From contig NC_090295.1 of the NCBI RefSeq assembly GCF_037392515.1, positions 31,102,501 to 31,166,500 on the forward strand: a stretch of 64,000 nucleotides of DNA. Reading direction: 5' to 3'. How positions within the stretch are numbered: the first letter of the stretch is position 1; the number at the start of each line of letters is the position of its first letter. Source of the stretch: Haliotis asinina. Taxonomy: Eukaryota; Mollusca; Gastropoda; Lepetellida; Haliotidae. Below are positions 10,243 through 61,974 of this stretch, piece after piece. The notes beneath the pieces are model-generated. The model searched no databases. It saw only the letters and a list, made by a program, of their open reading frames with translations, and was not told the DNA's origin. Position numbers and translations under genes: made by a program.

Positions 10243-10423
10243 TAGGCCCCGCCTACCCATTCATCAAAGCGAGAAGCCACACCTAGGCATTGTTTTCAAG
10301 ATGTTGTGCAGCCAATCCAGCGAAGCTATGATATACGATGACGTTTATCGTTTGACTTTCGATTCGTGGATGGATATATGGATATAATCGCATCTAAGGT
10401 TTGCCAACCCTAACCTTTACTCA

Positions 10424-10675
10424 CTAACCCTAAGGATCTAGAAGGGGGGGTCCCTAACCCTAAAGATCTAGAAGGGGGGTCCCTAACCCTAAGGATCTAG
10501 AAGGGGGGATCCCTAACCCTAAGGATCTAGAAGGGGGGTGTCCCTAACCCTAAGGATCTAGAAGGGGGGGGTCCCTAACCCTAAGGATCTAGAAGCGGGG
10601 GTCCCTAACCCTAAGGATCTAGAAGGGGGGTCCCTAACCCTAAGGATCTAGAAGGGGGGTCCCTAACCCTAAGGA
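10424..10675 (+). repeat. Minisatellite, 28-31 bp unit, nine copies, telomere-like and G-run motifs
   Basis: Each unit reads CCTAACCCTAAGGATCTAG then AAG and a run of six to eight G, then TC. Eight complete units and one partial. The CCTAACCCTAA part is two telomere-type repeats (TTAGGG on the other strand). Unit length varies mainly in the G run. One unit has AAAGATC for AAGGATC and one has AAGCGGGGG. Confidence 0.97.
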
Positions 10676-10831
10676 TACATCAGCGCGGTAAAGTGAGACA
10701 GTTCAGTAGCTCTACAGCGCGCTCATTAGCGAGCGCTCAGCAGTCCCGGGTCGCGCGCCCGGTAAACTGCACTCTAGCCAAAATGTGTAGGCAGCTCGTC
10801 ATTTTGCTGATTTCTCGACGTCACCAAAGAC

Positions 10832-13383: not shown

Positions 13384-15512
13384 GGGGGCACTGGTGTACT
13401 GTGGACTGCTTTCCCTTTGTTATTGTTTTTCTCCCACGAACACCCAGATGATATCCCAGAATTCATGCCTGAATCGTGAACTCTGCTACGCCACCCGTAT
13501 GCGCAATTGATAGTTGAAGTATAGACTGATCAACAAAGATGAAGTCATTTTAACTTCATTATTATGAAAACAAATGAAACACTTTGACCTTTAATAGTAA
13601 TTGCTCGTCTTATATTTTGTCTTAAAACCCAAATTAGTTTATTATCATATTTGTATGCATTTTGAAAGTTAATGTAAAAGCACACGATCTCCTTATACTC
13701 ACAGTGTATTTACAAACATGGCTGTAATATCTAAACATTGTATAGATTGCCAACGTGAATCACATTTCACACACGCCCTATGCGCGGCATAGTCTATGTT
13801 GTCTGTTATACATATTCTACTGAATGAACAAATAAATTAAAACAAAATGAAAATATTAAATTTAAAACAGACTAACAATGTCAGGCTATTACCTTTTCAG
13901 GAATGTAGCCACATAAAACAACCACATGATATTCATCTGCAACTGGTAAATATTCCTGTTCTCTGTCACGTGTGTTTCAACAGTCATATGCGAAAAAATA
14001 TTACATCGTGTCCGATTTTTCACATTGGTGTACAGTCTCATTGGTCACCCAAGATAAAACAACTGGCCACTAAATGTATGATGTAACCCATTCTAAATAA
14101 GTTAGTTAGCCAATAATGAGCATCAATCAACGTATTGGCGGTTAATTCTTTCTTTACGGCAGAGTGTAGTCAGTATAGGTTAGTAAATCTACACTCATAA
14201 ACATTGCCTTTTTGACAAACCCGCTGTGGAAGAAAACCCCAATTCATCAGTGTGCTATCGGTTAAACCTTTGATCGATGAATGTTTTTGTAACTTAGCTG
14301 ATAAACCTTCTTGCATCACTTACAAGCACATATTACATAACATGTAATACATTTGCCACATCAGAATTCATAATTCTGAGTGCATGTATTTACTCCAGAC
14401 TGGAAAACTGATAAATGAGAACTGTTGTCGGGTAATCTTAATGATGTTACCACTAATTATACCTGTTATAAATTCATGAACTGACCATCAAGTGAACGAT
14501 GACAAATAACATTTGTAGCTATATAACACGAAACGCGGGTTACAGCAAGGAGGAAGTAATCACTGTATTGCATGCAACCTAAAAACACTTTAGAGCCGAA
14601 ACTCTTTTCAGGATACCAACGAACTTCGTTGTTATAAGAAATACATATAAGCATTTGCTGTGTACAAGGGCAAATAAGTATATCAGTGTTTTTCCTGAGA
14701 AATGTTTCACATTGCGATACCAATGGAAAGGTCGTTATTAGTTCACGGATTCAAATGAATCAAATGTGTGTTCTTATTATCATAGACACCAGACCAGCTA
14801 CCACACATTACACATGATGTTTGCTATGAAAGGTGGGCCAACCCCCAGTGCTATCTAGATGTAAAGCTTTGCAATCTATCGGAATTATGCGAAGTAAATG
14901 GCTTGCTACGTGCCTGTAGATGAGTGGATGAGTGAGTTTAGTTTTACGCCGCACGCAGCAATATTCCAGCTATATGGTGGGGTCTGTAAATAATTGAGTC
15001 TGGACCAGACAATCCATTGAACAACAGTATGAGCATCGATCTGCGCAATTTGGAACCGGTGACACGAGGCAACCAAGTCAGCGAGCCTGACCACCCGATC
15101 CTGTTAGTCGACCCTCACGACAAGCATAGTCGCCATTTATGCATGGGTTGCTGAAGGCCTATGCTACCCTGGACCTTTAGATATCATATTTTTTCATGAC
15201 ATGGTTAAATGTGGAGATAGAAACACAGAAATGGGACCAAATTGGATCGGTCACTATACCATCCAGGCATTAGAAAAAAAACTCCAACTGCTGGGATACT
15301 TTATTACAACCAGACAAGGAATACAAGGGATATTTTCAACAGCTTGTGATGGTCATCCACAATTCTCACTGTTCATGGTGAAGAAATTCTACCAACGTGG
15401 ACATTACACCAGTCCCCGTGTCCGTCACGGTCAAGGGAGCAGGTAGTGACCAACTTGGTTTCGTAATTCGACTATCCGCTAGAAACATAAATCGCTCCGC
15501 ATCGGCGCCCCA
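13384..15512 (+). mobile_element. TTAA-flanked non-autonomous DNA transposon, copy 2
   Basis: Bounded by TTAA at 13380-13383 and 15513-15516. The left end is GGGGGCACTGGTGTACTGTGG; the right end read inward is TGGGGCGCCGATGCGGAGC. Aligned in order with copy 3 at 42251-43728 in reverse orientation, with shared blocks such as TAGACTGATCAACAAAGATG, GATGTTACCACTAATTATAC, CACTATACCATCCAGGCAT and TCCGTCACGGTC. No transposase; open frames are short and not shared. A SINE-B (14921-15177) is inserted inside. TTAA duplication with A/TGGGGC ends suggests Kolobok (piggyBac is the alternative). Confidence 0.85.
14921..15177 (-). repeat. SINE-B copy, near full length, nested in the TTAA element
   Basis: Complete from the GAGTGAGTTTAGTTTTACGC tail complement to the AGGTCC 5' end. 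Flanked by TAGA on both sides (14917-14920, 15178-15181), a short candidate target duplication. The corresponding site in the 42 kb copy lacks the SINE (GTATGTAGACATCAT in reverse complement), so this insertion is younger than the host element. Confidence 0.95.
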
Positions 15513-17600: not shown

Positions 17601-19212
17601 CATATGGAAATTAATTAAGCAACACCAAATTCAAAGACACATAAAAACTTAACAAAGTTTAACGAAGTAATTTTGATTATTGATTATTCAATTTTGATGT
17701 ATTGACATACAGCATGAGCTTTTCATGGGTTGATATGACGCGCGTGAAGCTTGCACAGCGCACGTGCATTGCTTTAACCTCAACTTTCGAAAAATGCACT
17801 TTTTCCCTGGGGTGTTTACAAGCGCAGGTTGTCGATTGCATTCGGTTTTTCATTCATTTCAATGTCATGGCACGTAGGAAATTATCAGAGGCCACTCGTT
17901 GGCAAATAATCGGCATGAGGAATGCTGGTATGTCTCTAAGACAAACCGGGACTCAAATCGGACGACATCATTCCATAATTTCAAAACTTTTGAAAAAATA
18001 CCGGGCCACTAATGAAGTTAAAGACCTGCCTAGACCAGGAAGACCCAGGAAGACCACAGTCCGGGAGGACAGAGCTTTACTGAGACTTGTACGGCGCAGG
18101 TCCTTCGACTCGAGCTCTCGGTTGAGACAGGAGTGGCTTCCAGGGAGACCCATCTCGAACAGGACTGTTCGGAATCGTCTGAAAGCTGCAGGATACCGGG
18201 CAAGGAGGCCAATCAAGCGACCCAGACTGTCTCCAGCCCATAAGGCAGCCCGACTGGCCTGGTGTAATGACCGTTTGCACTGGAACATTGCCTCTTGGAG
18301 GAAGGTCCATTTCTCAGATGAGAGCCGGTTCTTGCTGCACATGGTGGACGGTCGTACTCGGGTCTGGAGGCAGAGGAACACAGCAATGGCTCCACGGAAC
18401 ATCCAGGAGACTGTGGCCTTTGGGGGAGGTTCCGTTATGGTATGGGGGTGCATTTCCATGAACTGCAAGTTGGATATCATTACCATCCGTGGCAACCTTA
18501 ACGGTGTTCGTTACCAACAGGAGGTTCTTGACAGGGCTGTGGTACCTCATTTTGAGAACCATCCTCTGGCAACGAGACCCATATTTATGGACGACAATGC
18601 TAGACCTCACAGGGCGCATGCTGTAAATGATTTTTTGCGGCAAAATGCAATTGACAGAATTCCATGGCCTGCCATGAGCCCTGACCTCAACCCCATTGAA
18701 CATTTGTGGGACTTTATTGGCCGTCGTGTGAGGCAGAGAGACCCACCAGTCCATAATCTCAACGAATTGACGGCTGCCCTGCATGAGGAGTGGAACAGGA
18801 TCCCCCAGAATCAGATCCGGAGACTCATCCAAGGAATGAGGAGGCGTCTGGAATCGGTGGTGCGTGCGCAGGGAGGACACACTAGATATTGATGAAAGTC
18901 GGTGTGCAGACTCTCAGATGACTGTTCTTTCTTTCCATGTGACATTTGTGTTAATACACCTGACAACAACGTCTGTGGATGAATAGTAAATTGTGTCCAT
19001 TTTTTCATGAATTTAAGACAGTTTTAAGAATTTGGATTTCGTTGCAATAAAGCAAAGTCTTGATACTTTTTCCCTTTAAGTTGTTTGTCAGAGATCGTCT
19101 GTTGAATAAAAAAGTGTCAAACTATATCAACCCGGCATATTTTGATTGTCAGAACACTTCAAAGTTGCTCCAATAGAAAAAATTGGGGTGTTGCTTGATT
19201 AATTTCCAGGTG
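17601..19212 (+). mobile_element. Complete Tc1-like transposon, about 1.61 kb
   Basis: Terminal inverted repeats of about 28 bp: left GGAAATTAATTAAGCAACACC (17606-17626 region) and right, in complement, GGAAATTAATCAAGCAACACC (ending near 19187-19208). Both ends are flanked by TA, the Tc1/mariner target. It contains one uninterrupted transposase gene. The size is typical for Tc1. Every expected part is present, so this copy could be autonomous. Confidence 0.92.
17867..18892 (+). CDS. Tc1-family transposase, DD34E
   Basis: A 341-codon uninterrupted gene, the usual length for Tc1 transposases. The start is set at ATG 17867 (MARRKLSE), since upstream codons in the same frame (from 17702) have no family similarity. 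Order: a paired helix-turn-helix DNA-binding domain (residues about 1-115) with the GRPR hook at 58-61; then the RNase H-like catalytic domain with Asp151 in FSDESRF, Asp243 in MDDNARPH and Glu278 in DLNPIEHLWD. Asp243 and Glu278 are separated by exactly 34 residues. A Gly-rich GGGSVMVWG lies between the first two. The enzyme would bind the terminal repeats, cut the element out and insert it at TA. I see no missing catalytic residue, frameshift or stop. Activity cannot be judged from sequence alone. Confidence 0.95.
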   Translation: MARRKLSEATRWQIIGMRNAGMSLRQTGTQIGRHHSIISKLLKKYRATNEVKDLPRPGRPRKTTVREDRALLRLVRRRSFDSSSRLRQEWLPGRPISNRTVRNRLKAAGYRARRPIKRPRLSPAHKAARLAWCNDRLHWNIASWRKVHFSDESRFLLHMVDGRTRVWRQRNTAMAPRNIQETVAFGGGSVMVWGCISMNCKLDIITIRGNLNGVRYQQEVLDRAVVPHFENHPLATRPIFMDDNARPHRAHAVNDFLRQNAIDRIPWPAMSPDLNPIEHLWDFIGRRVRQRDPPVHNLNELTAALHEEWNRIPQNQIRRLIQGMRRRLESVVRAQGGHTRY

Positions 19213-19452: not shown

Positions 19453-19722
19453 GTGAGTGAGTGAGTTTACTTTTACGCCGCACTCAGCTATATTACAGCT
19501 ATATGGCGGTGGTCTGTAAATAATCGAGTCTGGACCAGACAATCCAGTGATCAACAACATGAGCATCGATCTGCGCAATTGGGAACCGATGACATGCGTC
19601 AACCAAGTCAGCGAGCCTGACCACCCGATCCCTTGAGTCGCCTCTTACGACAAGCTGAGTCGCCTTTTATGGCAAGCATGGGTTGCTGAAGGCCTATTCT
19701 ACCCCGGGACCTTCACGGGTGT
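19453..19722 (-). repeat. SINE-B copy, full length with 12-bp target duplication
   Basis: Runs from GTGAGTGAGTGAGTTTAC to the GGGACCTTCACGGGT 5' end. TTAGGTGTAGCA flanks it exactly at 19441-19452 and 19723-19734. This is a good reference copy for the family's 270-bp length. Confidence 0.97.
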
Positions 19723-21003: not shown

Positions 21004-21442
21004 GTAAGTAAGATACTTTATTCTTTGTCATATATGATGCAAAGTTTCTGTGTAGGGACCCGTAAAGGTCCCTGGTAGAATAGGCCTTCAGCGACCCATG
21101 CTTGCCATAAAAGGCGACTATGCTTGTCTTAAGAGGCGACTAACGGGGTCGGGTGGTCAGACTCACTGACTTGGTTGACACGTCATGGGTTCCCAGTTGC
21201 GCAGATAGATGCTCATGTTGTTGATCACTGGATTGTCTGGTCCAGATTCGATTATTTACAGACCACCGCCATATAGCTGGAATGTTGTAGAATGCGGCAT
21301 AAAAGTAAACTCACTCACTTGCTCATTCTGTGTAGGTTCTTATAGCGTTGACAAGCAAGAGTGACAACGGTATAGGAATCTACACCGAAACGTCGCATCA
21401 TATATAATAAATATGTTGCCATTCATACAGTATCTTACTTAC
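21004..21442. repeat. Inverted pair of a hairpin-bearing motif, split by a SINE
   Basis: The outer ends GTAAGTAAGATACT (21004-21017) and its complement (21429-21442) are inverted. Inside, the right half reads GACAACGGTATAGGAATC, TACACCGAAACGTCGCATC, ATATATAATAAATATG. The left half, in reverse complement and with the SINE removed, reads GTCAACGCTATAAGAACC, TACACAGAAACTTTGCATC. So two copies of one ~90-nt motif face each other. The same motif occurs as a pair at 32191-32391. Confidence 0.6.
21057..21327 (+). repeat. SINE-B copy, full length with 9-bp target duplication
   Basis: Begins GACCCGTAAAGGTCCCTGG and ends in ACTCACTCACTTGCTCATT. CTGTGTAGG flanks it exactly at 21048-21056 and 21328-21336. 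It sits inside the inverted motif pair. Confidence 0.97.
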
Positions 21443-25410: not shown

Positions 25411-25963
25411 AGATTAGAACAGTAATCTCGGATCCCAGTTAATAAGTGTCTGGATATCATTTTACGATGTGTATTGCATCAAAATTAAATCGACTGTCAC
25501 CTGAAATGGGTTTCAGACATAGGTCCAAAAGTGTAGAATCGAACCCGGTCCTTCAGTGAGACGAAAGAAAGCTCTAACCTTTCGTCGTAATTTCGTCACA
25601 ACTCCTGGAGGCATGGGCACGCGTTATGGGGCGTATTTAGCAAGTCACCAGAGAGCCACAGGGCTGTGCTGTGTGCAATGCACGGTGGGTAGGTTAAATA
25701 ACGGGATTACAAATAATTATCTCCCTTTGGTTACATGATAACATAATTCGTGGATCTGTGATGAAGTCATTGTTCCGGATCTGGATAGAAAAGGCTATTT
25801 CTCAGTAACACACTGTCACTCTGAAGTACCTTGTGTGAATGTCGAGTGTTACCAGGCACGACATGTCCACCCTCTTGGTTAATACCAAGCAGTGATTTTC
25901 AGTGATCCAGCCTTGTGATTACACCCGTTGTTTCGCTTTTCACGCCCAATATCTTTCGACTGG
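25411..25963. other. No feature recognised
   Basis: Includes a short piece (AATCGAACCCGGTCCTTCAG at about 25538) that may be a SINE-A B-box remnant on the minus strand; otherwise nothing. Confidence 0.5.
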
Positions 25964-26157
25964 GTAAGAGGCGACTAGTGGGATCTGGTGGTCAGTCTCG
26001 CTGACTTGGCTGACGTATGTCATCGTCTCCCAATTGCGTAGATCGATTCTGATGCTGTTGATCACTGGATTGCCTGGTTCAGGTTCGATTATTTACAGAC
26101 CGCCGCCATATTGTTGGAATATTGCCGAGTGTGGCGTAAAATTACACTCAGTCACTC
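25964..26157 (+). repeat. SINE-B copy, 5' truncated
   Basis: Starts at TAAGAGGCGACTAGTGGGAT and runs to the GTGTGGCGTAAAATTACACT tail with CAGTCACTC. Confidence 0.92.
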
Positions 26158-26796
26158 TTACGGCGGATAGTCGAGACTGGTTAATCGCCGGCATCGCCGT
26201 CTTAGCCATAACAGGGCGGAATTGTACGTCAATACATAAAACATGACATAATACTTCATAACTTGTGGAATACTTTCAAACTAAACTGAACCACCTATAC
26301 CCACGGAATAACATAATTTGGGTGTTAGGACTCTTGTAACAAAATCCCACCGTATCCGCGGAACACCATAGCGGTGTGATTCAAACCGTACTTTAAACAT
26401 AGTACCCAGCATGGGAGTAGAACCAGAGAGACATGCCATCGCTGCAATAGCGAGCATACGGCACCACCAAAGTAATCTATCAGTGGATATGCTACAATAA
26501 CAGAACCAGCATTACTTGAAAATTAAATAGTGTGTTAATTTCTAAGCTGGACTTGAAAACTATAATATCAGTCAGTTTGTAAAGTACATAACTTCATACG
26601 CCACAATCTACCATCACTTGATATTTCATTCTCACTGAGCAGTACACAAATAAAACTCGCAACTGCTTTAATTCGAAATGACATCTATTTACCGACAACT
26701 GGCGGAGAGTAATAACGATGTCTTTTCTTTAAAAAAATAGAAAGAAATATCTTCTTGGAGAGAGATTTAAAAGGCCTAAGGATGGGCGCTAGCTGT
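26158..26796. other. No feature recognised
   Basis: Unique-looking; nothing supported. Confidence 0.5.
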
Positions 26797-37830: not shown

Positions 37831-38159
37831 ATCTATAAACGATGAGCATCGGACGTATCTGCCGTTGTGCTTTCTCAAAGTATAATGAAACGATATAGAA
37901 AGGTTTCAGCAAGGGAAATACACTACCGTGTGATCGTATAAACGCGCTGCCATTGGGAAGAACGTGTCTAGTGGTGTAACGATACGTTTAGACAGCATTG
38001 TATCCCCCACAATACAAATTAATACATCGATTTATAATGTTTCGCAATACATTCAACTGACTAAAAGTTAGGGTAACCACCTGTCGTAAATGTAGATGTA
38101 TGGGCTGGCAGTATTTGTATTTGTTTCTTAATGACAGATGCAAACGTTTTTCTTTGTGT
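37831..38159. other. No feature recognised
   Basis: Nothing supported. Confidence 0.5.
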
Positions 38160-38426
38160 ACCCGTGAAGGTCCAGGGTAGAATAGGCCTTTAGCAACCCA
38201 TGCTTGCCATAAAAGGCGACTATGCTTGTCGTAAGAGGCGACTAACGGGATCGGGTGGTCAGGCTCGCTGACTTACTTGACACATGTCATCGGTTCACCA
38301 TTGCGCAGATCGATGCTCATGGTGTTGGTCACTCGATTCTCTGGTCCAGGCTCGATTATTTACAGACCGCCGCCATATAGCTGGAATATTGCTGAGTGCG
38401 ACGTAAAACTGAACTCACTCACTCAT
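38160..38426 (+). repeat. SINE-B copy, full length
   Basis: Runs from ACCCGTGAAGGTCCAGGG to ACTCACTCACTCAT. CTTTGTGT (38152-38159) and CTTCGTGT (38427-38434) flank it as a slightly diverged target duplication. Confidence 0.95.
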
Positions 38427-38819
38427 CTTCGTGTCCGTAACGTTTTCCTATTAAAATTCGTGACATGGAACAAACTGGATTTTTGACGGTCATATTTTAA
38501 GGTTGGATACAAAATATCAAAATGTCAAGAAATTGTTAAAGTTGGTGTCATTTTGTAAGAAAAACATGTCCCGAATCTATTTATGTAATATAAACAGCAA
38601 GTCAGCACGGCATTTGTGGCAGTCTGTAAAAGATATTATGTCAATAAAAGTTCTCTGAAAAGTCGGTTGTTTACGTTCATAACTCAATATGTGTTTTTTA
38701 CAAAGATATTTCAGTATTGATATGAATTGTAAACCAAGAGTCACTGTGTTCTGTAGTCTGATCGGTTGAAAAGCACGATCAAATGGGATTAGATTCCCGG
38801 AAACAGCAAGGCTATTCAC
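38427..38819. other. No feature recognised
   Basis: Nothing supported. Confidence 0.5.
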
Positions 38820-43800: not shown

Positions 43801-43980
43801 TGACACGGAGCAGAATTGATCTTCAGCAACTCATGCTTGTCGTAAGAAGCGACTGACGATGTCGGTTGGTCAGGCCCGCATACCTCGTTGAGACATGTCA
43901 CTATAGCACAATTACGTAGATCGATGCTCATGTTGTTGATCATTGGATTGTCTGGCCCAGACTCGATTATTTACAGCCCG
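43801..43980 (+). repeat. SINE-B copy, 3' truncated
   Basis: CAGAATTGATCTTCAGCAAC, ACTCATGCTTGTCGTAAG, AATTACGTAGATCGATGCTC and CCAGACTCGATTATTTACAG are intact; it stops abruptly after TTTACAG. Confidence 0.93.
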
Positions 43981-45892
43981 ACCAAGCCCGCGACGGCCAA
44001 AGATGTTGTAGGGGTTGACCAGCAAAGAAACTACTTGCACGAAAGTCAAACTGGCCCTAAGCCCGATATGCAGCACGTAACCGTCAGGTCCTGGCTGAGC
44101 TTGTTTCACGAATGTTTAGAGTTTGTATGAAAATATCTACGAGGTTCAGTCGATAACACCATACCCATAGTCATTCTAACGGTTGCACCAGCCAGTTCAT
44201 CTCTTTTCATTTCAAATTAGGTCTCCATACAAACCATTTCGGAAGCCTAATACTTTCATTGCATTGTGTTTGCAGGACATTGATGACACATGGCGAAGGA
44301 ATAGTGTGTTGAGATGAATACATTTTACCGGAAAAAAGGTTTCATAATTAAATAAAAAATACAACACAGATTAGCCAAGGGTGCTGTTCACTTTCAGAGT
44401 CTGCAGAGCTATAGTTGCCCGGAATTTCACGACAAAACTTGTCGTCCATGCCATCACTGACATGTTATTGAAAGTGTGGAAATTAAACTTGCTACAAATT
44501 CTAGACTGTATATGGTACATTACATTTGTTTCCGAATCTGTATGACATCGGTGGAATATATGATGTAGTTACCTGCTGTGAATTTCACCAAAATGGTGCA
44601 AAGAGGCATGCAGTACATGAGTACGGTTCAGCAAATTTTGGGTACGGAATCATACAAAATATGGGTACATTTGGTGTGGTATTCTTCCGGCCCACGGGCC
44701 TTGGTGAGAGTTATCAAATGAAAAGTTAAATAATATCACATAATCTGTAAGTAGCCTCGATTATATTTATCAAAGCCATTATTATATAATCATACTATTG
44801 TTGTTAATATTATATGTAATTATATTAATATAACTGATAATAAACATTATTATATTTTTCAGTCTTTATGCGCTTTCTGATTTGTTTCCGCCAGTTCGAT
44901 CTATGGCGTCCCTCTTGAATGTTACGTTTTGTGAGCACAAACTGTTCACTAGTGTTTATTTAATGAGTATGTATACTTATTCCATTGCAAGCGCGAATGT
45001 TTACATCACGTGACGATCACATGCTGAGGTCGGCCAAGTTTGCAATCGTTTCACGTGACCAGCAGGGGTCTATTTTCAGCGGGAATGACCGATCGTGAAA
45101 GACATGTGCCGGAATGACACCAGTGATAACGAATGTCACAGTATTGACACAATCTACACGATCTCAGCATCAAATCGTCTGGAACTGAGAACCTGCCCAT
45201 CTCTCTTATTCTCGAACCGATAACCCAGCAATTAACCTACTAATTTCCAAAATAATTCAAACAAACCTGTAACTTGGCCTCTTGGAATCGCACCGTCCGT
45301 CTACAAGTGTGCTACAAGGTATCGTCTGCCTTTTCGCTCCAAAGCTCATACATTCATACAATCTGCTCGTGCAAAACGTGAGATTCGAGCTAACATATCT
45401 CCTGCTCGGTGTAAACCTCGGGATGCCGCAGACCACCCATTCAAAACAAAATAGTTTCGCCACAAATTCTTCAAATACGTTATCAAATAATCGAATATCA
45501 CTTGAAGAAAGGATAATTAATTTTATACATTTTCTCGAAATTTAGAGCTCAGATCTTTTTATCTCTTTTTCAAGATATCCCAAAATATTAAAGACACTTT
45601 ACACTTTTGTTCAGTATGTTATTAGCTGGTCCTCTCACAATTCCAGAAAATACCGCGGACCGTACGGAGGCATATTATCCTGACCAGAACGCATATTCGC
45701 GTCAGACAATAACATGGAATAACATTTTACAGCAACTTCAATCAATAACGTGCCCTCTTGTGACGACATTGCGCGCGTAAAATATTGTTATTGTCTTGTT
45801 ACTGATTGTTCAAGTGGTCGTTGCAACCCGCAATGGACACTATCGATATAAATGTTCTGTGAGTCAACTTAAAAATATAATATATACAGTAA
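43981..45892. other. No gene recognised; AT-rich tract and paired E-boxes
   Basis: 44757-44860 is about 85% A+T (TTATTATATAATCATAC). Two perfect TCACGTGA octamers lie at 45006-45013 and 45051-45058, exactly 45 bp apart. They match the E-box bound by USF/MITF-TFE-type factors. No adjacent coding exon identified. Confidence 0.5.
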
Positions 45893-45975: not shown

Positions 45976-46962
45976 CTTAAAGCTTACATGTTACCAAGGA
46001 AACAAACATAATCTTGTCACATTTATCATTTATTCATGACATATAACATACATTTCTCATTATGAAAATAAACAAAGCGAACTATCGGAAATCAAAAGTG
46101 CAATATTTTGTACTTGGGTATACAATGCTCAAAACCAAGAAGCCGGCACACCAAACCCAGTCAGAGCGGGTGGGTGTGCACTCAAGTGTAAAGGAGACTT
46201 TCACTTGTTGGTTCATTTGCCGATAAGCTCAGGTGTATGTATGTATAGACGTTGAGCTTAGTAAGTACATGCTCATTTTTTCTGCATTTGCATTGGATCC
46301 AGTCAATAAATACTGAGATGATAGCGTGTCCAAGTGCAAACCGTTACATGACACTGCCAACCAGAGTTAGCGCCGGTTTCCGTACGATCCAGTCAACCCT
46401 GAAAATAGGATGCCATCAACACATCATAACTGAGCTTATCTGAGTATTTCTAGCAATGATATTAGTATTTCTATTGGTGCACTTTCTAGAAAACTTGCTT
46501 TGCAAATCTTGATCGCGGACGACCTGGGAACCCTTCGCTCATAATTTGCAAGAGCCACTGGGCAGAACATGCTAGTACGGATCATGTGTCAGGTCAGAGC
46601 CCAACTTATCTTTGTTTGTCAGTAGGTGTCGAATAACACCTGATTAAGAACCGTAAGTACAACATATTTTTTTATCTAACCCAATACACAGCCATGTCAA
46701 ACCTTGCTGGTATGTCCAGTATGCGCTGGTTGAATAGATGCCGTTTTCGTAGTAATCAATTGAATGGAGATAATGTGTCTGCAGCTGAGATGATTTCCCA
46801 CCTGGTAGATAAAGTATTGAATGCAATTCGACAGAAACTAAATTTCTGAAAATTATTTTTGCAAGAGACAATTAACACGCAAGTCTATGGAAATTTCACT
46901 GATGATACAACTGTGTTGTGGTCGCTGAACACAAATGACTATTTCTTCAGTATGTTTGTTGT
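45976..46962. other. No feature recognised
   Basis: Nothing supported. Confidence 0.5.
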
Positions 46963-47156
46963 TTAAATGCCACTCACCAATATCACAGCTATATGACGGT
47001 GGTCTGTAAACAGTCATGTCAAGAACAGGCAATCTAGATACTGACATCATGATCATCGATCTGCGCAAATGGGATACGACGACATGTCAACGAGCCTGAC
47101 GACGTATGTGCGGCTCAACAGACGTGGCCTCTTACGATAGGTATGGCAACTGAAGG
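46963..47156 (-). repeat. SINE-B copy, diverged
   Basis: AATATCACAGCTATATGACG, GTGGTCTGTAAACAGTCATG, ATGATCATCGATCTGCGCAA and GTCAACGAGCCTGACGACG; the 5' end (TGGCCTCTTACGATAGG) is shortened. Confidence 0.88.
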
Positions 47157-47232
47157 GAAATAATAACCGGGAACATGGGTCATTTCTTGAGCGTACACGC
47201 CTTGAAAATGAATCTTAATCCGTCTGTATTGA

Positions 47233-47395
47233 AGGGGTTGTGTGGTTGCCTTGTGGTTAAAGCGTTCGCCTGTCCCGTAAAAGTCCCAGGCTCGATCCCC
47301 CAACATTGGCACAATGTGTGAAGTCCAGTTCTTGTGTCCCCGCCGTGACATTTAGACATCTTACTAAAAGCCGCGAAAGATCCAACAAACTCGCT
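47233..47395 (+). repeat. SINE-A copy, near full length
   Basis: A box TGCCTTGTGGTTAAAGCGTT, B box AGGCTCGATCCCCCAAC, middle TTCTTGTGTCCCCGCCGTGA and tail ACTAAAAGCCGCGAAAG. It lies about 225 bp left of the YR retrotransposon. Confidence 0.93.
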
Positions 47396-47620
47396 CACGT
47401 CTGTATTGGTGTCTTTCCACAGTTGAAATGAAGGTTGATGTTTTCAAACGCCTTCGTTGAACATGTGCGAGATTACTCTGGTTCATTCTTTTCTCCAGGT
47501 GTGTATCAGAGGAAAAGTTAAGTGGCCGCTCGGTCGAACATATATAACGACTACCACTATTTAACCTCACACTGGCTCGTCCCATTGCCAAAGCTGATAA
47601 CAGACGTGGAACCCCGAGTC

Positions 47621-47798
47621 AAATATAATTTCTTTCGTTTGAGGCACGAATTAGAATGAAATTTCTTTCTCCTAGCGTCGGAAGATACAACAAAGGGAAG
47701 TAATGCTATAGGTATGGGGGCGCTCTGGTAGGTATAAAAGGGAGGGAAATTTGAATTAGATTATTCTCAGCTGCGGTGCACCAGCGGTCAGTTTTGAT
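47621..47798 (+). repeat. Split direct repeat A1 with TATA box
   Basis: 178 bp, identical to A2. Contains a good TATA box, GGTATAAAAGGGAGG (47731-47745), about 65 bp before the gag start, so transcription probably begins near 47762-47770. A GGTGCACC palindrome lies near its 3' end. Confidence 0.9.
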
Positions 47799-47799
47799 T

Positions 47800-48501
47800 A
47801 TGGACGGTCCCGCGAGAGTCAACACTGACAGTGACAAGTTAGACGCCATTTTGAAAAAGTTGGATCAATCACAAGCTGAAATTAGGAAGGCAGTTAATGA
47901 GAAGATTGAAGGTCTGCGAGATGAGTTTCATAAAACATCAAAAGAATTGCATAAATTGAAAGCTGAGAGGGACTATCAGTGGAAAAGAGAAGGGAACAAA
48001 ATTCAGTTTTCTTTTAATTCAGAAGCTTTGGAAAACTTAGAACAAATACGGTTTGCAGTTCAATATGGTAAGACTGATTACGCCTTGGAATTGATTAATG
48101 AAGAAGTTTCCAGGTTCCAGACAAGAAACAAGCACATAAAGATAGCCGATTCCTCAGAGGGGGGTTGGGAAACAGTGCGCAATTATGTGGCTCATGAATT
48201 GGCGTCAGATTCTGATGACGACAAAAGAATCAACAGAGCGGAAAGCAAAGCCATTAAGAAAATCAAGACAAGGGCGTCTCGTTCCGCACGGTTGCATCCC
48301 TACAAGTCGACCCAGCGTCCTTCCTCGACAGTCACTCAGGTTTCAGTGGATTCCCATGCTGGTGACCAGTCTAGTAATTTTCGTGGCCGAGGTCAAAGGT
48401 CTGGAGCGTGCTTCATGTGTGGCGAGTTCAGCCATTGGAGACGTCAGTGTCCCTTGCTCAGCAACACAACACAGCAACGTGGGAAGCTTGACAGAGAGTA
48501 G
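47800..48501 (+). CDS. Gag-like protein with zinc knuckle (Ngaro-type ORF1)
   Basis: 233 codons from ATG 47800 (MDGPARVN), which is the first ATG after the A1 TATA box and lies two bases past the end of the repeat. Residues about 12-60 are a heptad-like Leu/Lys/Glu coiled coil. The middle (about 65-130) is a mixed helical segment including EQIRFAVQYGKTDYALELIN. A basic Ser/Arg stretch follows. Near the C-terminus a CCHC zinc knuckle, C204-x2-C207-x4-H212-x4-C217 (CFMCGEFSHWRRQC), would bind the element RNA. The gene ends at TAG 48499-48501. The pol frame lies +1 relative to gag and is already open upstream of that stop, so pol is reached by frameshift or separate initiation. No damage visible. 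Confidence 0.88.
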   Translation: MDGPARVNTDSDKLDAILKKLDQSQAEIRKAVNEKIEGLRDEFHKTSKELHKLKAERDYQWKREGNKIQFSFNSEALENLEQIRFAVQYGKTDYALELINEEVSRFQTRNKHIKIADSSEGGWETVRNYVAHELASDSDDDKRINRAESKAIKKIKTRASRSARLHPYKSTQRPSSTVTQVSVDSHAGDQSSNFRGRGQRSGACFMCGEFSHWRRQCPLLSNTTQQRGKLDRE

Positions 48502-50515
48502 GATACGTTCCAAGGAAGCAGAACCTGAAGTTGAGTATACCTTATGTGATGATACTGTAAACGTTGATGAACCTGGCCTTACAAATGACTTTTATGAATA
48601 TGAACAAGATGGGCTAGATATAATTGTGAAGGGTAGACTAAAACGTCATGTTTCGTTTTGGAGAGAAATATGTGCTGTTGATTTTGTAGTAGACATTATT
48701 GAAAACGGGTACAAAATACCTTTTTATTCTACCCCAAAAAGAATGAATATAAGGAACAATAGATCTGCTAAGGAGAATTCTGACTTCGTGTCATCGGCTG
48801 TTCAAGATTTGTTGCGCAGAGGGTTGATTGTTCAGTGTTCAGATAAGCCTTAAGTTGTTAATCCTTTATCTGTAGCTGTACAACACTCTGGTAAGAAGCG
48901 TCTTATTTTAGACTTGTCTAGAGTGAATAAACATTTGTGGAAGGCTTCAGTTAAATATGAAGACTGGAGAACTGCATTGTTGTACATAAAAAAGAATGAT
49001 TGGCTAGTGAAATTCGACATTCATTCTGCATACCACCATATTGATATTTACCATGAACATACGCAGTTTCTAGGATTTGCATGGGGATCAGGAATAGACA
49101 AGAAGTATTTTAAATTTCTAGTCCTTCCGTTTGGTTTGAGTACAGCTCCTTATGTGTTTACCAAGGTTACCAGACAGTTGGTAAAGTTTTGGCGTTTCCA
49201 AGGTTACAAGATTGTTACTTTCCTAGATGATGGGATCCTGTCAAGTTTTTCCGAATGTGAAACGACAATTGTTGGCCAAATTGTCAAACAAGATTTGTTA
49301 AAAGCAGGTTTTGTTCCAAAAGCAGAAAAGTCACTATGGAAGCCGGTTCAGGAGATCGAATGGTTGGGTTTTATCATAGATACCAGACACATGAAGTTGT
49401 CCATCCCTCAACGGAAAATTTGTAAGCTTAAGCAAAGTATAAGAGAACTTCTGTCTTCTACTGTACCAGTTCCGGTGAAGAGCTTGGCTTCGGTTGTTGG
49501 ACAGATAGTTGCTATGAAGATGGTTGTTGGTACTTTGTGTCAACTAATGACAAAGTTTCTGAGTATTCAGACTCTCCAGGCTTCATCGTGGAAGGCACCT
49601 GTGGTGCTATCGTATTTGAGTAGAGATCAATTACAATTTTGGGCAGCGCATATTGACAGACTCAGTAAGTGCACTCTATGCTATGCAAGCATTCCTACAC
49701 GGGTAGTTTACAGTGATGCTAGTAATTCTGGTTTCGGTGGGTACTGTGTAGAAGTTGGGCAAGCCATATCACATGGTCAGTGGTCAGCACTAGAAGCGTC
49801 ACGAAGCTCCACTTGGAGAGAGCTGAAGGCAGTGTTTCTGGTTATGAAAAGTTTCGTTTCCATTTTGGAATCTCACAAAGTAAAATGGTTTACTGACAAT
49901 AAAAATGTAGAGTCGATTGTGTCCAAAGGTAGCATGAAAGCTGATCTTCAAGCTTTGGCTTTAGATATATTCTGGCTGTGTAATGAATATAATATCAGAG
50001 TTGACATGCAGTGGATACCAAGGTTAGACAATGAGCGTGCTGACTATCTGAGTAAGATAGTAGATGCTGATGACTGGGGTATCCAGGATTATGTGTTTCA
50101 ACACGTCTCTGCCAAATGGGGCCCATTTGACGTTGACAGATTTGCTTCATATTACAATACTAAAGTTGTAAGGTTTAACTCCAGATTTTGGAATCCGGGA
50201 AGTGACGGAGTGGATGCTTTATCCGTGTCCTGGGGTGACGACAATAACTGGATAGTGCCTCCTATATGTATGATTGCACGTGTTCTTAAACACATGAGAG
50301 AGTGTCATGCCAAGGGAACTCTCGTGATTCCTGTATGGTATTCAGCTAACTTCTGGCCTATTTTGTGCCCTAATAGGGTATTTATACCCCAAGTTAAAGA
50401 TTGGATGTATCTTCCCACTTGTAAGGAAGCATATGTACCAAGCAGACAGTTTGGGGGGTTGTTTGGAGTAAACGATTTAAAATTCAACATGATGGCTTTA
50501 CATGTGGAATTTTGA
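48480..50515 (+). pseudogene. DIRS-type reverse transcriptase-RNase H, one in-frame stop
   Basis: The frame is open from upstream of the gag stop. It reads a typical DIRS RT start (GYKIPFYSTPKRMN, DLLRRGLIVQC), then a TAA at 48851-48853, then VVNPLSVAVQHSGKKRLILDL and the full polymerase. RT motifs: catalytic Asp in FDIHSAYHHIDI (codon at 49016), LPFGLSTAPYVFTKV, and FLDDG (Asp codons at 49226 and 49229). RNase H follows with Asp in YSDASNSGFGG, Glu in WRELKAV, Asp in FTDNKNV and a final Asp in ERADYLSK, all four acidic residues present. The C-terminal domain (VDRFASYYN, SRFWNPGSDGVDALSVSW, FWPIL) is shared by DIRS/Ngaro polyproteins in animals as I recall them. The gene ends with TGA 50513-50515. 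Only the one stop prevents a full-length protein; it could be a recent mutation or a read-through site, the former being likelier. Confidence 0.9.
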
Positions 50516-50584
50516 TGTTGTTTGCGTGTTGCAGGTGTGTTTGAACATGTATATAGAAGTGAGATATTGACTTTACCTCCACCT

Positions 50585-51532
50585 ATGAGGGCGCTCGTGA
50601 GAAGTCTTCCAGAGCATTTGTCCTGCTCGAGAGCAAACTCCACAAATAAGAAGTATGATTACGGCTTTAAAGCATGGAAGAAATGGGCTTTGGCCCATGG
50701 TATGTCGACAGATATGCCCTTATCACCTTTGCACTGTTCTTTATATTTGTTAGCGATGTGTCAGCAAAGTGAATCTTTCTCACCTGTTCAGACAGCTTAC
50801 TATAGTTTGAGACATGCCCATGTTTTGGTTGGTTTGGAAAGCCCCACAGAGAGTACGTTAGTGAGAAATGTACTTGAAGCCGCTAAGAGGAAGTTAACCA
50901 AGCCTGTTTGTAAGAAAGAGCCTGTAACAGTTGAGTTGTTGAATAAGATTGTACCAGACAATGCTGATGAATGTTCATTGTATAAAATGAGAACTGTTGT
51001 AATGTGCCTTCTAGCCTATTCAGGTTTCATGAGATCGTCGGAGTTATTAGCGATAACTCGGAATGATGTTGTATTTTATCAAGCTTACATGGCTGTTTTT
51101 ATTCAGAAATCAAAAACTGATGTCTACAGAGATGGGGCCTGGATTATTATAGGCCGGACAGGTACAAATAAGTGCCCTGTAGCATGGTTGGAGCGATATT
51201 TGAAGCTTACCAAATTGAAAGATCCTGAATTTTTATTCAGAAATATGAGTAAGACTAAAAATGGTTACATTTTGAGAGGTGATAATAAGCCGATGTCATA
51301 TTCACGTTTGAGAGAGCTTTTCATTGAGGCGTTTAGTTCACATGTTAGTGATATATCAAAGTTTGGTCTGCATAGCTTGAGAGCAGGCGGAGCGACTGCA
51401 GCCGCAAACAATGGCATTCCAGATAGAATGTTTAAGCGCCATGGCAGATGGAAAAGTGAAAATGCAAAAGATGGTTATGTAAAAGATGATATTGAGAAGC
51501 GTTTAAAAGTTTCTCTTTCGCTTGGATTGTAA
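50585..51532 (+). CDS. Tyrosine recombinase of the Ngaro-like element
   Basis: 315 codons from the first in-frame ATG (50585). The frame is open back to the pol stop codon and is the same frame as pol, so the two are separated by a single TGA (50513-50515). Features: N-terminal SAM-like core-binding region (about residues 10-100), then the catalytic domain with Arg in GFMRSSELL, a conserved Lys in IQKSKTD, His-x-x-Arg in LHSLRAGGATAA, His/Trp in KRHGRW, and the nucleophile Tyr in KDGYVKDD (Tyr codon at 51476). All R-K-H-R-H/W-Y positions are present. It would join the circular DNA intermediate to the genome without making target duplications. The gene ends 19 bp before repeat B1. Intact by inspection. 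Confidence 0.94.
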   Translation: MRALVRSLPEHLSCSRANSTNKKYDYGFKAWKKWALAHGMSTDMPLSPLHCSLYLLAMCQQSESFSPVQTAYYSLRHAHVLVGLESPTESTLVRNVLEAAKRKLTKPVCKKEPVTVELLNKIVPDNADECSLYKMRTVVMCLLAYSGFMRSSELLAITRNDVVFYQAYMAVFIQKSKTDVYRDGAWIIIGRTGTNKCPVAWLERYLKLTKLKDPEFLFRNMSKTKNGYILRGDNKPMSYSRLRELFIEAFSSHVSDISKFGLHSLRAGGATAAANNGIPDRMFKRHGRWKSENAKDGYVKDDIEKRLKVSLSLGL

Positions 51533-51550
51533 ATCTGCCCGTTCTTTATA

Positions 51551-51622
51551 TCTCAGTTGGTGCACCGTACAGCATGCCATGTTATGTAAGTGTTTGTTGT
51601 ATGTGAATAAGGGGTTGGAGAA
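51551..51622 (+). repeat. Split direct repeat B1
   Basis: 72 bp, identical to B2 (52140-52211). Begins TCTCAGTTGGTGCACCGTAC and ends GGGGTTGGAGAA; the last AA is shared with the start of A2. Confidence 0.92.
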
Positions 51623-51798
51623 ATATAATTTCTTTCGTTTGAGGCACGAATTAGAATGAAATTTCTTTCTCCTAGCGTCGGAAGATACAACAAAGGGAAG
51701 TAATGCTATAGGTATGGGGGCGCTCTGGTAGGTATAAAAGGGAGGGAAATTTGAATTAGATTATTCTCAGCTGCGGTGCACCAGCGGTCAGTTTTGAT
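51621..51798 (+). repeat. Split direct repeat A2
   Basis: 178 bp, identical to A1, including the TATA box (51731-51740). Directly abuts B1. Confidence 0.95.
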
Positions 51799-52139
51799 GT
51801 GTCCTGTATGTTATGTGATGTTTATGTGAGTGGATATATACACTGTCTGTATATACGCATGTGGTCTATACTGAATGTTTAATTCTCGTGTCATGTTACA
51901 GACCGATGACTGGCACTGTTGAGTGGGACGGACATGTCCAGGCTGGCGAGCCGTTAGAATACGTGAGTCATCGGGGAGCAATTGCCATGAGCTGTCCAAC
52001 ATGTAACCTTGAGATGTTGTGTGCAGATTTGAAGCTGATTCTGTGATGTGATGAGACGACGGGTTATCTAAGTCTAAATGAATGTACTCTGGTATAACTG
52101 TAGCAATTACATAATTATTCGGTTACGAATAAACTGTGG
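51799..52139 (+). other. A2-B2 spacer with possible short intron and polyA signal
   Basis: A 341-bp unique segment. A consensus 5' splice site GTGAGT (51826-51831) and a 3' splice site ending TTACAG (51901) define a possible 76-bp intron. AATAAA occurs at 52128-52133, just before B2, and is the likely polyadenylation signal. A 61-codon open frame starting with GTG (51861-52046) has no recognised family. Confidence 0.45.
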
Positions 52140-52211
52140 TCTCAGTTGGTGCACCGTACAGCATGCCATGTTATGTAAGTGTTTGTTGTATGTGAATAAG
52201 GGGTTGGAGAA
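52140..52211 (+). repeat. Split direct repeat B2, right end of the element
   Basis: 72 bp, identical to B1. Right boundary GGGGTTGGAGAA followed by CAGGACTT flank. Confidence 0.92.
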
Positions 52212-52317
52212 CAGGACTTGGTTCTAGTAGGAGACAAATTTCTGAGACTTCAGTGTGACTTCAGGCTAATGTAAACATCCTCTGTATTTATTTAGTTTGG
52301 TTAACTGCATAGACAAT

Positions 52318-52630
52318 GATATAGATAGACAGATAGATAGATATGCCTCAATGGATGGATGGATAAATAGATATACATGGGTAGATAGGCAGATATATGG
52401 ATGGAAGGATGGATAGATATACATGGGTAGATAGCTAGGTAGATATATGGATGGATGGATGGATAGAGAGGTATGCATACATAGAAAGACATATATATAG
52501 GTGTAGATTAATGTATACATATATAAGGATACATACATAGACATGGATAGATAGATGATAGACATGGATAGATAGATAGATAGATGGAGATATATAGATA
52601 TGGTTGAATGGATAGATAGACATATACAGT
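52318..52630 (+). repeat. GATA/GGAT tetranucleotide microsatellite, compound
   Basis: About 310 bp of ATAG, GATA and ATGG units interspersed with ATACATAT. Open frames across it on the minus strand (Ser/Ile/Tyr-rich) are artefacts. Confidence 0.95.
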
Positions 52631-53619
52631 ATATTTGGGTCAAACTTTGATGTGTCAAACTTATGAAGGTTTTGAAAAAGCATAGTCTTATCGTATTCAT
52701 TCATGCATTGATTTTCGATGGTGTCCATGGTAACAGTACTGTGAGGAAGTATCAAGATGCTTGTTGTGCCCTACATGCACCTGGTCAGAAAAGATCTGCA
52801 TACTCATGAATTGTGTACATGTAATCCTAAAGTTTATTTGTGAACAACAGCACTGTGCTGTCAAGCACTGATGGCTGTTTACAAACAGCAGTTACTTAGG
52901 TGGGGAAGAGTATTCACAATTGAACCTATGCAGTTACCAGCTGCTGCAGGTCCAATATAAATTCTTGTCACAAAGCACCTAGCTGTTACCATCTGTGATT
53001 AATGTTCTGTAGTTGCTGAACCATGCAGTAGACTGTGTTCTACATGTGGGATTTGAAAGAGACAAACCAATGATTGATATTATCAGCAACAGTCCATCAC
53101 AAAGACTAGAAGGTTACCAATCCTGATCACCTGATGCATTAGTGGACTCTTACAACAGACACAAATTGTTATTCTATTTACTTAAATTAGTTGCATCTAT
53201 TTCCCATCAACTTTTCTTGGATGTTGTGAAAAATGATAACACAAAATTGATTATTATACATTTGAAGTAATGAGTAACAACAACTGAGTGTACATATAAC
53301 AAAAAATGGTCTGTTTTAAAGAAATGGAAAATCTACCCTGTTTTAAATTTTTTAAGGGGGTTCTTCAAAGATTGAATACTTTTCACTTTTATGTTGTAAC
53401 TGCACAATTTCACAAATAATTGTTTTGTGTAATATCATTTAGGTAGCTGTCCTGCCTCACCAGCTGGGAGTCCTGGCCACATCCCAGGCAACTGCTGACA
53501 CTGTGTTAATTCTGAGTAATTTTAAACTTGCCACCAGCCTAGGCTGGTCATAAACTGATCCAGCAGACAGACTCAGTGATATGGTTGATAGAACATCCGT
53601 TCATCTCATGATTTTTGTG
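52631..53619. other. No feature recognised
   Basis: Nothing supported. Confidence 0.5.
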
Positions 53620-57816: not shown

Positions 57817-58052
57817 TGAAGTTCTGGGTTAGAATTGATCTTCATACATGTTGGAAAAGGCCTCAAATAGAATCGGGTGGTCAGGCTCCCTGACTTGGTT
57901 GACACCCGTCATTGTATCTCAGTTACATGTCATTGATCACTGGATTTTCTGATCCAGATTTGATTATTTACAGAATGCTGCCATATAGCTGGATTATTGT
58001 TGAGGACAGCGTGTATTTAAACTCACTCACTCACTCACTCACTCATTCACTC
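57817..58052 (+). repeat. SINE-B copy with long ACTC tail
   Basis: GAAGTTCTGGGTTAGAATTG, AATCGGGTGGTCAGGCTCCC, TGATCACTGGATTTTCTGAT, TGATTATTTACAGAATGCTG and a tail of six or more ACTC units, the longest in the window. Confidence 0.94.
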
Positions 58053-60684: not shown

Positions 60685-61974
60685 ACGAGGGGATGTCAAT
60701 AAGTTTTGAGCCTTGAGCATTTTTCATACCCAGGTGTCACAGCCTATGGTACGACATTGCACCTTGGGGTGTAGCTGATGTGATATATAAGTTTTGGTAT
60801 CCTACTCTCAGAAGTTAGTGAACAGCTCAAATTGACAGAAAGAGACCCCCCTCACAGCAGTGAAAATGAATAAAATTGAGCATAGAGCAGTAATTAAGTT
60901 TTTAGTTCTTGAAGGAAACTCGGCGAAGAACATTGAAGAAAGGCTTTCAGCAGTTTATGGGAAGTCTTCCCCTTCATCTGCTACCATCAAACGATGGGTC
61001 AATGAATTTAAGCATGGCAGAGAGAGTCTTGAAGATGACCCCTGTCCAGGTCGCCCAACAACAAGCACTAGTCAGGAAAACATTGACAGAGTGCGTAGAC
61101 TTGTGCTGGAAAATCGTCGAATCACACTCCATGAGTTAGAGGAGACCAAAGGCATTTCACACGGATTCATCAAGACAATTCTTCATGAACATCTCGTCAT
61201 GTCTAAGGTGTGTGCAAGATGGGTGCCAAGAATGCTTACAGATGAAATGAAGCAAACAAGGGTCACCATAAGCAACTCCATGCTAACCAGATACAACAAG
61301 AATCCAGAAGATTTTCACTTTCAGCTAGTAACCTGTGATGAAACCTGGATCCACCACTATGATCCTGAGAGCAAACAAGAATCCATGGAATGGAAACATC
61401 TCATTTCTCCCAGGACCAAAAAGTTCAAAGCCTCCAGATCAGTGAAGAAGGTAATGGCGACAGTCTTCTGGGATAGCAAAGGCGTCATCCACATAGATTA
61501 CTTACCAAAAGGAAGAACAATGAATGGGGAATATTACGCTAACTTGTTGAGGCAAGTGCGACAGTCAATCAAGAAGCGCCGGGGCAAGATTAGACGTGGT
61601 ATTCTTCTACATAAAGACAATGCTCCAGTACACACCTCTCGCGTTGCAGCTGTGCTGTCCAGGAATGCAGGTACGAAATCTTGCCGCATCCCCCTACTCT
61701 CCAGACCTGGCACCAAGTGATTACCATCTGTTCCCAAATCTCAAGAAACACTTGCATGGTCGTAGATTTCAGGATGATAATGAGCTTATTGCTACTACTG
61801 AGGCTTGGTTTGAGGACCAAAATGGCTCTTCTACAGAGATGGCATCAGCGCCTGGCAGAAAAGATGGAAGAAGTGTCTTGACTCATAAGGAGACTATGTT
61901 GAAAAATAAATGTGGTTCATACCAATATTTTGTGTTTTTCTTTGCAAGGCTCAAAACTTATTGACATCCCCTCA
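60685..61974 (+). mobile_element. mariner element, about 1.29 kb, inactive
   Basis: Inverted terminal repeats of about 28 bp: left GAGGGGATGTCAATAAGTTT (from 60687) and right the same read in complement (ending 61973). Flanked by TA at 60683-60684 and 61975-61976. Length is standard for mariner. The two ends match almost perfectly, so insertion was not ancient, but the transposase is broken. Confidence 0.92.
60866..61909 (+). pseudogene. mariner transposase, frameshifted
   Basis: Starts at ATG 60866 (MNKIEHRAVIKF). Helix-turn-helix domain first, with RWVNEFKHGRESLEDDPCPG; then the WVPRMLT signature of mariner; first catalytic Asp in TCDETWIHHYD; second in HKDNAPVH. The frame breaks near 61670, and YSPDLAPSDYHLF with the third Asp continues in the next frame. 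A second shift near 61830 returns to the original frame, where RWKKCLDS, a stop at 61886-61888, GDYVEK and the natural terminator TAA 61907-61909 are found. Counting from the second to the third Asp gives 33 intervening residues after omitting one base but the canonical 34 if two bases were lost, so the first lesion is better explained as a 2-bp deletion. Family DD34D. Confidence 0.9.

Follow-up and report, generated by a model that had tools for sequence, protein, structure and literature searches.

A nearly complete tyrosine-recombinase retrotransposon with split direct repeats, provisionally filed as PAT, in Haliotis asinina

Split repeats and the ends of the element

The window analyzed here, a stretch of 64,000 nucleotides of Haliotis asinina DNA, carries an element that spans positions 47621-52211 and is built around two direct repeats, A and B, in the split order A1...B1A2...B2, the internal pair lying downstream of the tyrosine recombinase (YR) gene. 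The repeats and the signal next to B2 are as follows.

47621..47798, + strand: A1, left terminal repeat, 178 of 178 positions identical to A2, with TATAAA at 47733 and GGTGCACC at 47775
51551..51622, + strand: B1, internal repeat, 72 of 72 positions identical to B2, with GGTGCACC at 51559
51621..51798, + strand: A2, internal repeat, with TATAAA at 51733 and GGTGCACC at 51775
52128..52133, + strand: AATAAA, outside B2 and beginning 12 nt ahead of it, with no other AATAAA/ATTAAA in 51401-52300
52140..52211, + strand: B2, right terminal repeat, with GGTGCACC at 52148

Comparison of the sequence within the window confirmed both repeat pairs exactly as an earlier note on this DNA had described them, as well as the TATA box it had placed at 47733. 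B1 and A2 adjoin so closely that the AA dinucleotide at 51621-51622 is common to both. Given their length, exact repeats in such an interleaved order are unlikely to have arisen by chance. Besides the copies in A1 and A2, TATAAA is found within 47401-52300 only at 50981, inside the YR ORF, and as the sole AATAAA/ATTAAA of 51401-52300 belongs to the right end, B1 has no poly(A) signal nearby.

The left flank of A1 reads ...CCCCGAGTC, ending in GAGTC, and is followed by AA, and the AA of B2 is followed on its right by CAGG... Comparison of the flanks gave no target-site duplication at the element ends beyond AA, and such flanks are what a crossover at the common dinucleotide would leave. Inverted terminal repeats and an internal complementary region were looked for and not found: the six inverted pairs of at least 20 nt in 46800-53200 have arms of 21-32 nt that are 72-77% alike, and none is located at the element ends. 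Elsewhere in the window, blastn with the two repeats and with the A2-B2 spacer gave six unconvincing rows (best E 0.11), and tblastn with gag, pol and YR gave one equally unconvincing 29-residue YR row (E 0.086).

Just downstream of the element lies a GATA/GGAT-rich microsatellite (52310-52630). The window also holds a Tc1/Tc3-type transposase in a 402-aa open frame at 17684-18889 (HTH_Tnp_Tc3_2 E 1.2e-16, DDE_3 E 3.8e-13) and a mariner-type transposase at 60836-61961 (Transposase_1 E 1.1e-23 in 60836-61717), which may continue in a second overlapping frame, 61551-61961, that has no Pfam match; it is perhaps a decayed copy. On the strength of its Tc1- and mariner-type transposases and of the retrotransposon, the window is taken to come from a eukaryotic, probably animal, genome. 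A tandem array at 10421-10688 has a unit of 29-30 bp, composed of CCCTAACCCTAA and then a GATCTAGAAGGGGGG-like stretch, and is telomere-like in part. A SINE-like interspersed family is present in + copies at 21041-21328, 25955-26165, 38143-38432, 43833-44035 and 57844-58040 and in reverse copies at 14951-15141 and 19454-19707, pairs of which are up to ~91% alike. These interspersed repeats presumably resemble gastropod (abalone-type) SINEs.

Coding content of the element

Between the terminal repeats the following coding features are read.

47800..48501, + strand: gag ORF, 233 aa, ATG at 47800, stop at 48499-48501, CCHC knuckle at 48409-48450
48146..48850, + strand: upstream piece of the pol frame, overlapping gag in the +1 frame, ended by TAA at 48851-48853
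48854..50515, + strand: downstream piece of the pol frame with RT (FLDD), RNase H and a methyltransferase-like domain, TGA at 50513
50063..50512 (also given as ~50063-50360), + strand: Dam/N6A-methyltransferase-like domain, with PF05869, phrog_111 and TIGR01712 matches
50516..51532, + strand: YR ORF in the same frame as pol, first ATG at 50585, PF00589 E 1.4e-9

The gag ATG is located one base beyond A1. The gag knuckle, C-x2-C-x4-H-x4-C, reads CFMCGEFSHWRRQC, in agreement with the CCHC knuckle noticed earlier, and its Pfam matches are weak and below cut-off (zf-CCHC_2 E 0.0044, zf-CCHC E 0.023). The RT and RNase H reported in that same reading are matched by RVT_1 (E 4.6e-16), with FLDD at 49220, and by RVT_3 (E 3.1e-5), with all four acidic motifs, at 49706, 49811, 49886 and 50024. 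Against PDB sequences the pol piece returned two retroviral-type RT chains, both weak (E 0.0015 and 0.0084). The N-terminal part of RT is taken to sit in the 3' end of the upstream pol piece; a Pfam scan of pol 48500-48850 gave no match. Catalytic roles are assigned to the RT, RNase H and YR motifs from those of their families. Pfam scans of four pieces, with E up to 1, detected no integrase or protease, and the combination of RT, RNase H and tyrosine recombinase without a DDE integrase match is that of the DIRS order.

The TAA at 48851-48853, in the apparent N-terminal part of RT, is the sole premature stop seen, as had been noted before, and it may predate or postdate the insertion. A full pol should not be expected from this copy's own RNA. 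The second in-frame stop, the single TGA at 50513 that parts pol from YR within one frame, is probably natural. As the pol frame has no ATG between the gag stop and 48743, pol is probably expressed by frameshifting or from some other unusual start.

The YR ORF is intact and in sense orientation. Between 51023 and 51490 it contains the motifs R (from 51023), K (from 51104), H..R (from 51368), H/W (from 51434) and Y (from 51470), and the complete set attributed to this protein is indeed present; a search of PDB sequences with YR gave no match. A candidate splice acceptor at 50534/50535 has a weak pyrimidine tract (9/15), and seven GTRAG donors lie within the element upstream of YR. For acceptor 50535 the in-phase donors are 48068 when the gag frame is read and 48891, 49422, 49665, 50052 and 50421, five of the seven, when the pol frame is read; since so many donors are in phase, phase says little on splicing to YR.

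The domain that follows RNase H was not listed in the earlier note. As an isolated piece of 150 aa it matches PF05869 (Dam) with E 2.1e-6 and 28.0 bits, the cut-off being 28.1, and within the long pol piece the same model gives E 9.8e-6. The same stretch matches phrog_111 (DNA methyltransferase, E 0.0031) and the NCBIfam model TIGR01712 (phage N6A methyltransferase, E 0.002, 17.7 bits versus a cut-off of 97.05). PF05869 is also the model by which the methyltransferase (MT) domain of DIRS elements is described as detected (PMC3783388). The MT piece had no match among PDB sequences, and its structure model was discarded at a mean pLDDT of 32. Motif IV of N6-adenine methyltransferases is (D/N/S)PP(Y/F/W). 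As the corresponding position here, within 50252-50269, reads VPPI, the domain is probably not catalytic, and judging by its sequence it is probably structural or degenerate.

Searches of viral, phage and prokaryote sequences confirmed no relatives. Pattern scans for the pol and YR pieces, which detect close relatives only, gave 2 and 1 stretches in viral contigs and 30 and 13 in prokaryote genome contigs, none of which was confirmed by tblastn. Motif scans of viral contigs gave 3, 0 and 9 stretches, and at none of these 12 loci did gag, pol or YR give a tblastn or phmmer match with E of 1 or better. The B1A2 joint was not found in viral contigs, the pol piece had no tblastn match among phages, and Rfam had no match on the window at gathering score.

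Age of the copy and a proposed replication cycle

The repeats show 0 differences in 250 bases (178 + 72, the two common AA bases being counted twice), which sets a 95% upper bound of ~1.2% on their divergence (rule of three). Zero differences fit a young insertion, and the copy is probably fairly young. The earlier note had called it very recent; identity of the repeats agrees with youth, but a bound of ~1.2% without a host mutation rate falls short of that stronger wording.

Building on what is directly seen, i.e., the repeats, ORFs, motifs, stop and MT-like domain, we infer the RNA ends, a circle and recombination and propose the following cycle. The RNA would start in A1 just past the TATA box and end in B2 just past AATAAA. 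As TATAAA lies in A1 and AATAAA only before B2, such an RNA would miss the outermost portions of both A and B. These two portions are present, joined, in the internal B1A2 copy, which would then template them, and the full cDNA would be a circle in which B meets A just as it does in B1A2. The tyrosine recombinase would insert this circle at a target sharing the AA crossover dinucleotide, leaving no target-site duplication. Integration of a circle by recombination is taken from the family, as described for DIRS1 (PMC3266345), and the proposed RNA, with its missing parts joined at B1A2, is consistent with the idea put forward in PMC6681497 that repeats which anneal in the course of reverse transcription should be almost the same when the element inserts.

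Four copies of the palindrome GGTGCACC are present in the window (47775, 51559, 51775 and 52148), one in each repeat, and it is the sole 8-mer common to A and B on the same strand. Alignment of A with B pairs TCTCAGCTGCGGTGCACC with TCTCAGTT--GGTGCACC, a score that was reached by 28 of 2000 dinucleotide-shuffled pairs; when B was reverse-complemented, its score against A was slightly higher than on the same strand (21 versus 20, real sequences alone). The expected RNA ends can pair with each other through GGTGCACC, a pairing equaled in strength by 40 of 1000 shuffled pairs, and pairing of an end with itself was equaled by 123/1000 shuffles for the 5' end and 180/1000 for the 3' end. Folded as RNA, three stretches of the repeat ends did not stand out from their shuffled versions (z -1.12, 0.85 and 1.21), and a pattern for a wider shared A/B block, as written, matched A1 and A2 only. 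These A/B signals are weak and were noticed after looking. It is a doubtful, though conceivable, idea that GGTGCACC, situated in every A and B copy just inside the expected 5' start of the RNA and at its expected 3' end, serves as a short R region or kissing loop that pairs the ends of the RNA (or cDNA) and so drives the template transfers by which the split repeats are completed.

Classification among PAT, Ngaro and DIRS1

There is good support for reading the locus as a retrotransposon of the tyrosine-recombinase type that carries split direct repeats. Repeats, gag, pol and YR are all present, and its earlier description as near-complete holds. It belongs to a known class of element and is otherwise ordinary. 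The name Ngaro-like, which that description also carried, does not fit as well, as a Dam/MT-related domain follows RNase H and published Ngaro elements are defined by the absence of MT; in PMC4157794, PMC9210276 and PMC3266345 Ngaro is described without MT, and DIRS and PAT with it. Split direct repeats plus MT are the published criteria for PAT, and the echinoderm form of Pat1-like elements, which is recorded from Lottia gigantea, is a PAT whose gag carries a zinc finger and whose internal repeats follow YR (PMC4157794). Split direct repeats, a gag CCHC knuckle and, by sub-threshold homology, MT after RNase H are what we find here. As the MT-like domain follows RNase H, we favor PAT over Ngaro and consider the copy, on its sequence, an inserted echinoderm-form Pat1-like element (PAT superfamily, DIRS order) with a probability of roughly 0.7. 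Counting against PAT are a Dam match just under its cut-off, an NCBIfam match far under, and a motif IV that is not intact. The reassignment rests on domain content, and structural features are regarded in PMC4157794 as homoplastic, not to be used for classification alone and in need of phylogeny; in PMC6681497 PAT was not recovered as one clade. Filing under PAT (Pat1-like) rather than Ngaro is accordingly provisional.

A less likely reading, which still deserves consideration, is that of a true Ngaro-lineage element whose pol has an MT-related tail; the replication cycle would be the same, and MT would then be no separator of Ngaro and PAT in such animals. The repeat order is alike in Ngaro and echinoderm-form PAT (PMC4157794), and Ngaro is not rare in Lottia, with 53 instances (PMC4157794) versus one L. 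gigantea family typed PAT-like (PMC3266345), counts that differ in unit. The split direct repeats are shared with Ngaro, and the MT match of pol is sub-threshold but significant; three libraries, two of them weakly, indicate a methyltransferase relation, which, with the published descriptions of Ngaro as lacking MT, speaks against this reading. A DIRS1-like element would share the MT-like domain, but it is very improbable, since the repeats are direct and split and the inverted terminal repeats and internal complementary region (ICR) of that group were not found, the short, diverged inverted pairs lying away from the ends. More improbable still is an assembly duplication, for which perfect identity of the copies could be cited, as the pattern interleaves two distinct repeats, B1 passes directly into A2, the complete coding unit is enclosed by A1 and B2 with their outer ends, and the promoter and poly(A) motifs are placed as the cycle requires.

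Taken as PAT, this almost complete copy could serve as a seed for finding relatives and for testing the rebuilding of split repeats. It also illustrates that Ngaro is not to be recognized by its split-repeat layout without a search for an MT domain.

Among known systems, DIRS1 shares the RT/RH/MT pol and YR and differs in its inverted terminal repeats and internal complementary region. Ngaro has the same A1-ORFs-B1A2-B2 layout with gag, RT, RH and YR, and its published members are without MT, unlike the present element with its MT-like domain. Amphibian Ngaro elements are described with an SGNH hydrolase ORF after YR (PMC9210276), which is not evident here: B1 starts 19 nt past the end of the YR ORF, and from there to B2 the sole + strand ORF of at least 60 aa has 61 aa. 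The echinoderm-form Pat1-like PAT elements (SpPat1, and those of Lottia and Nematostella; PMC4157794) have the same B1A2 downstream of YR, split direct repeats, gag zinc knuckle, MT domain and sense YR, and the element of H. asinina differs from them by one premature stop.
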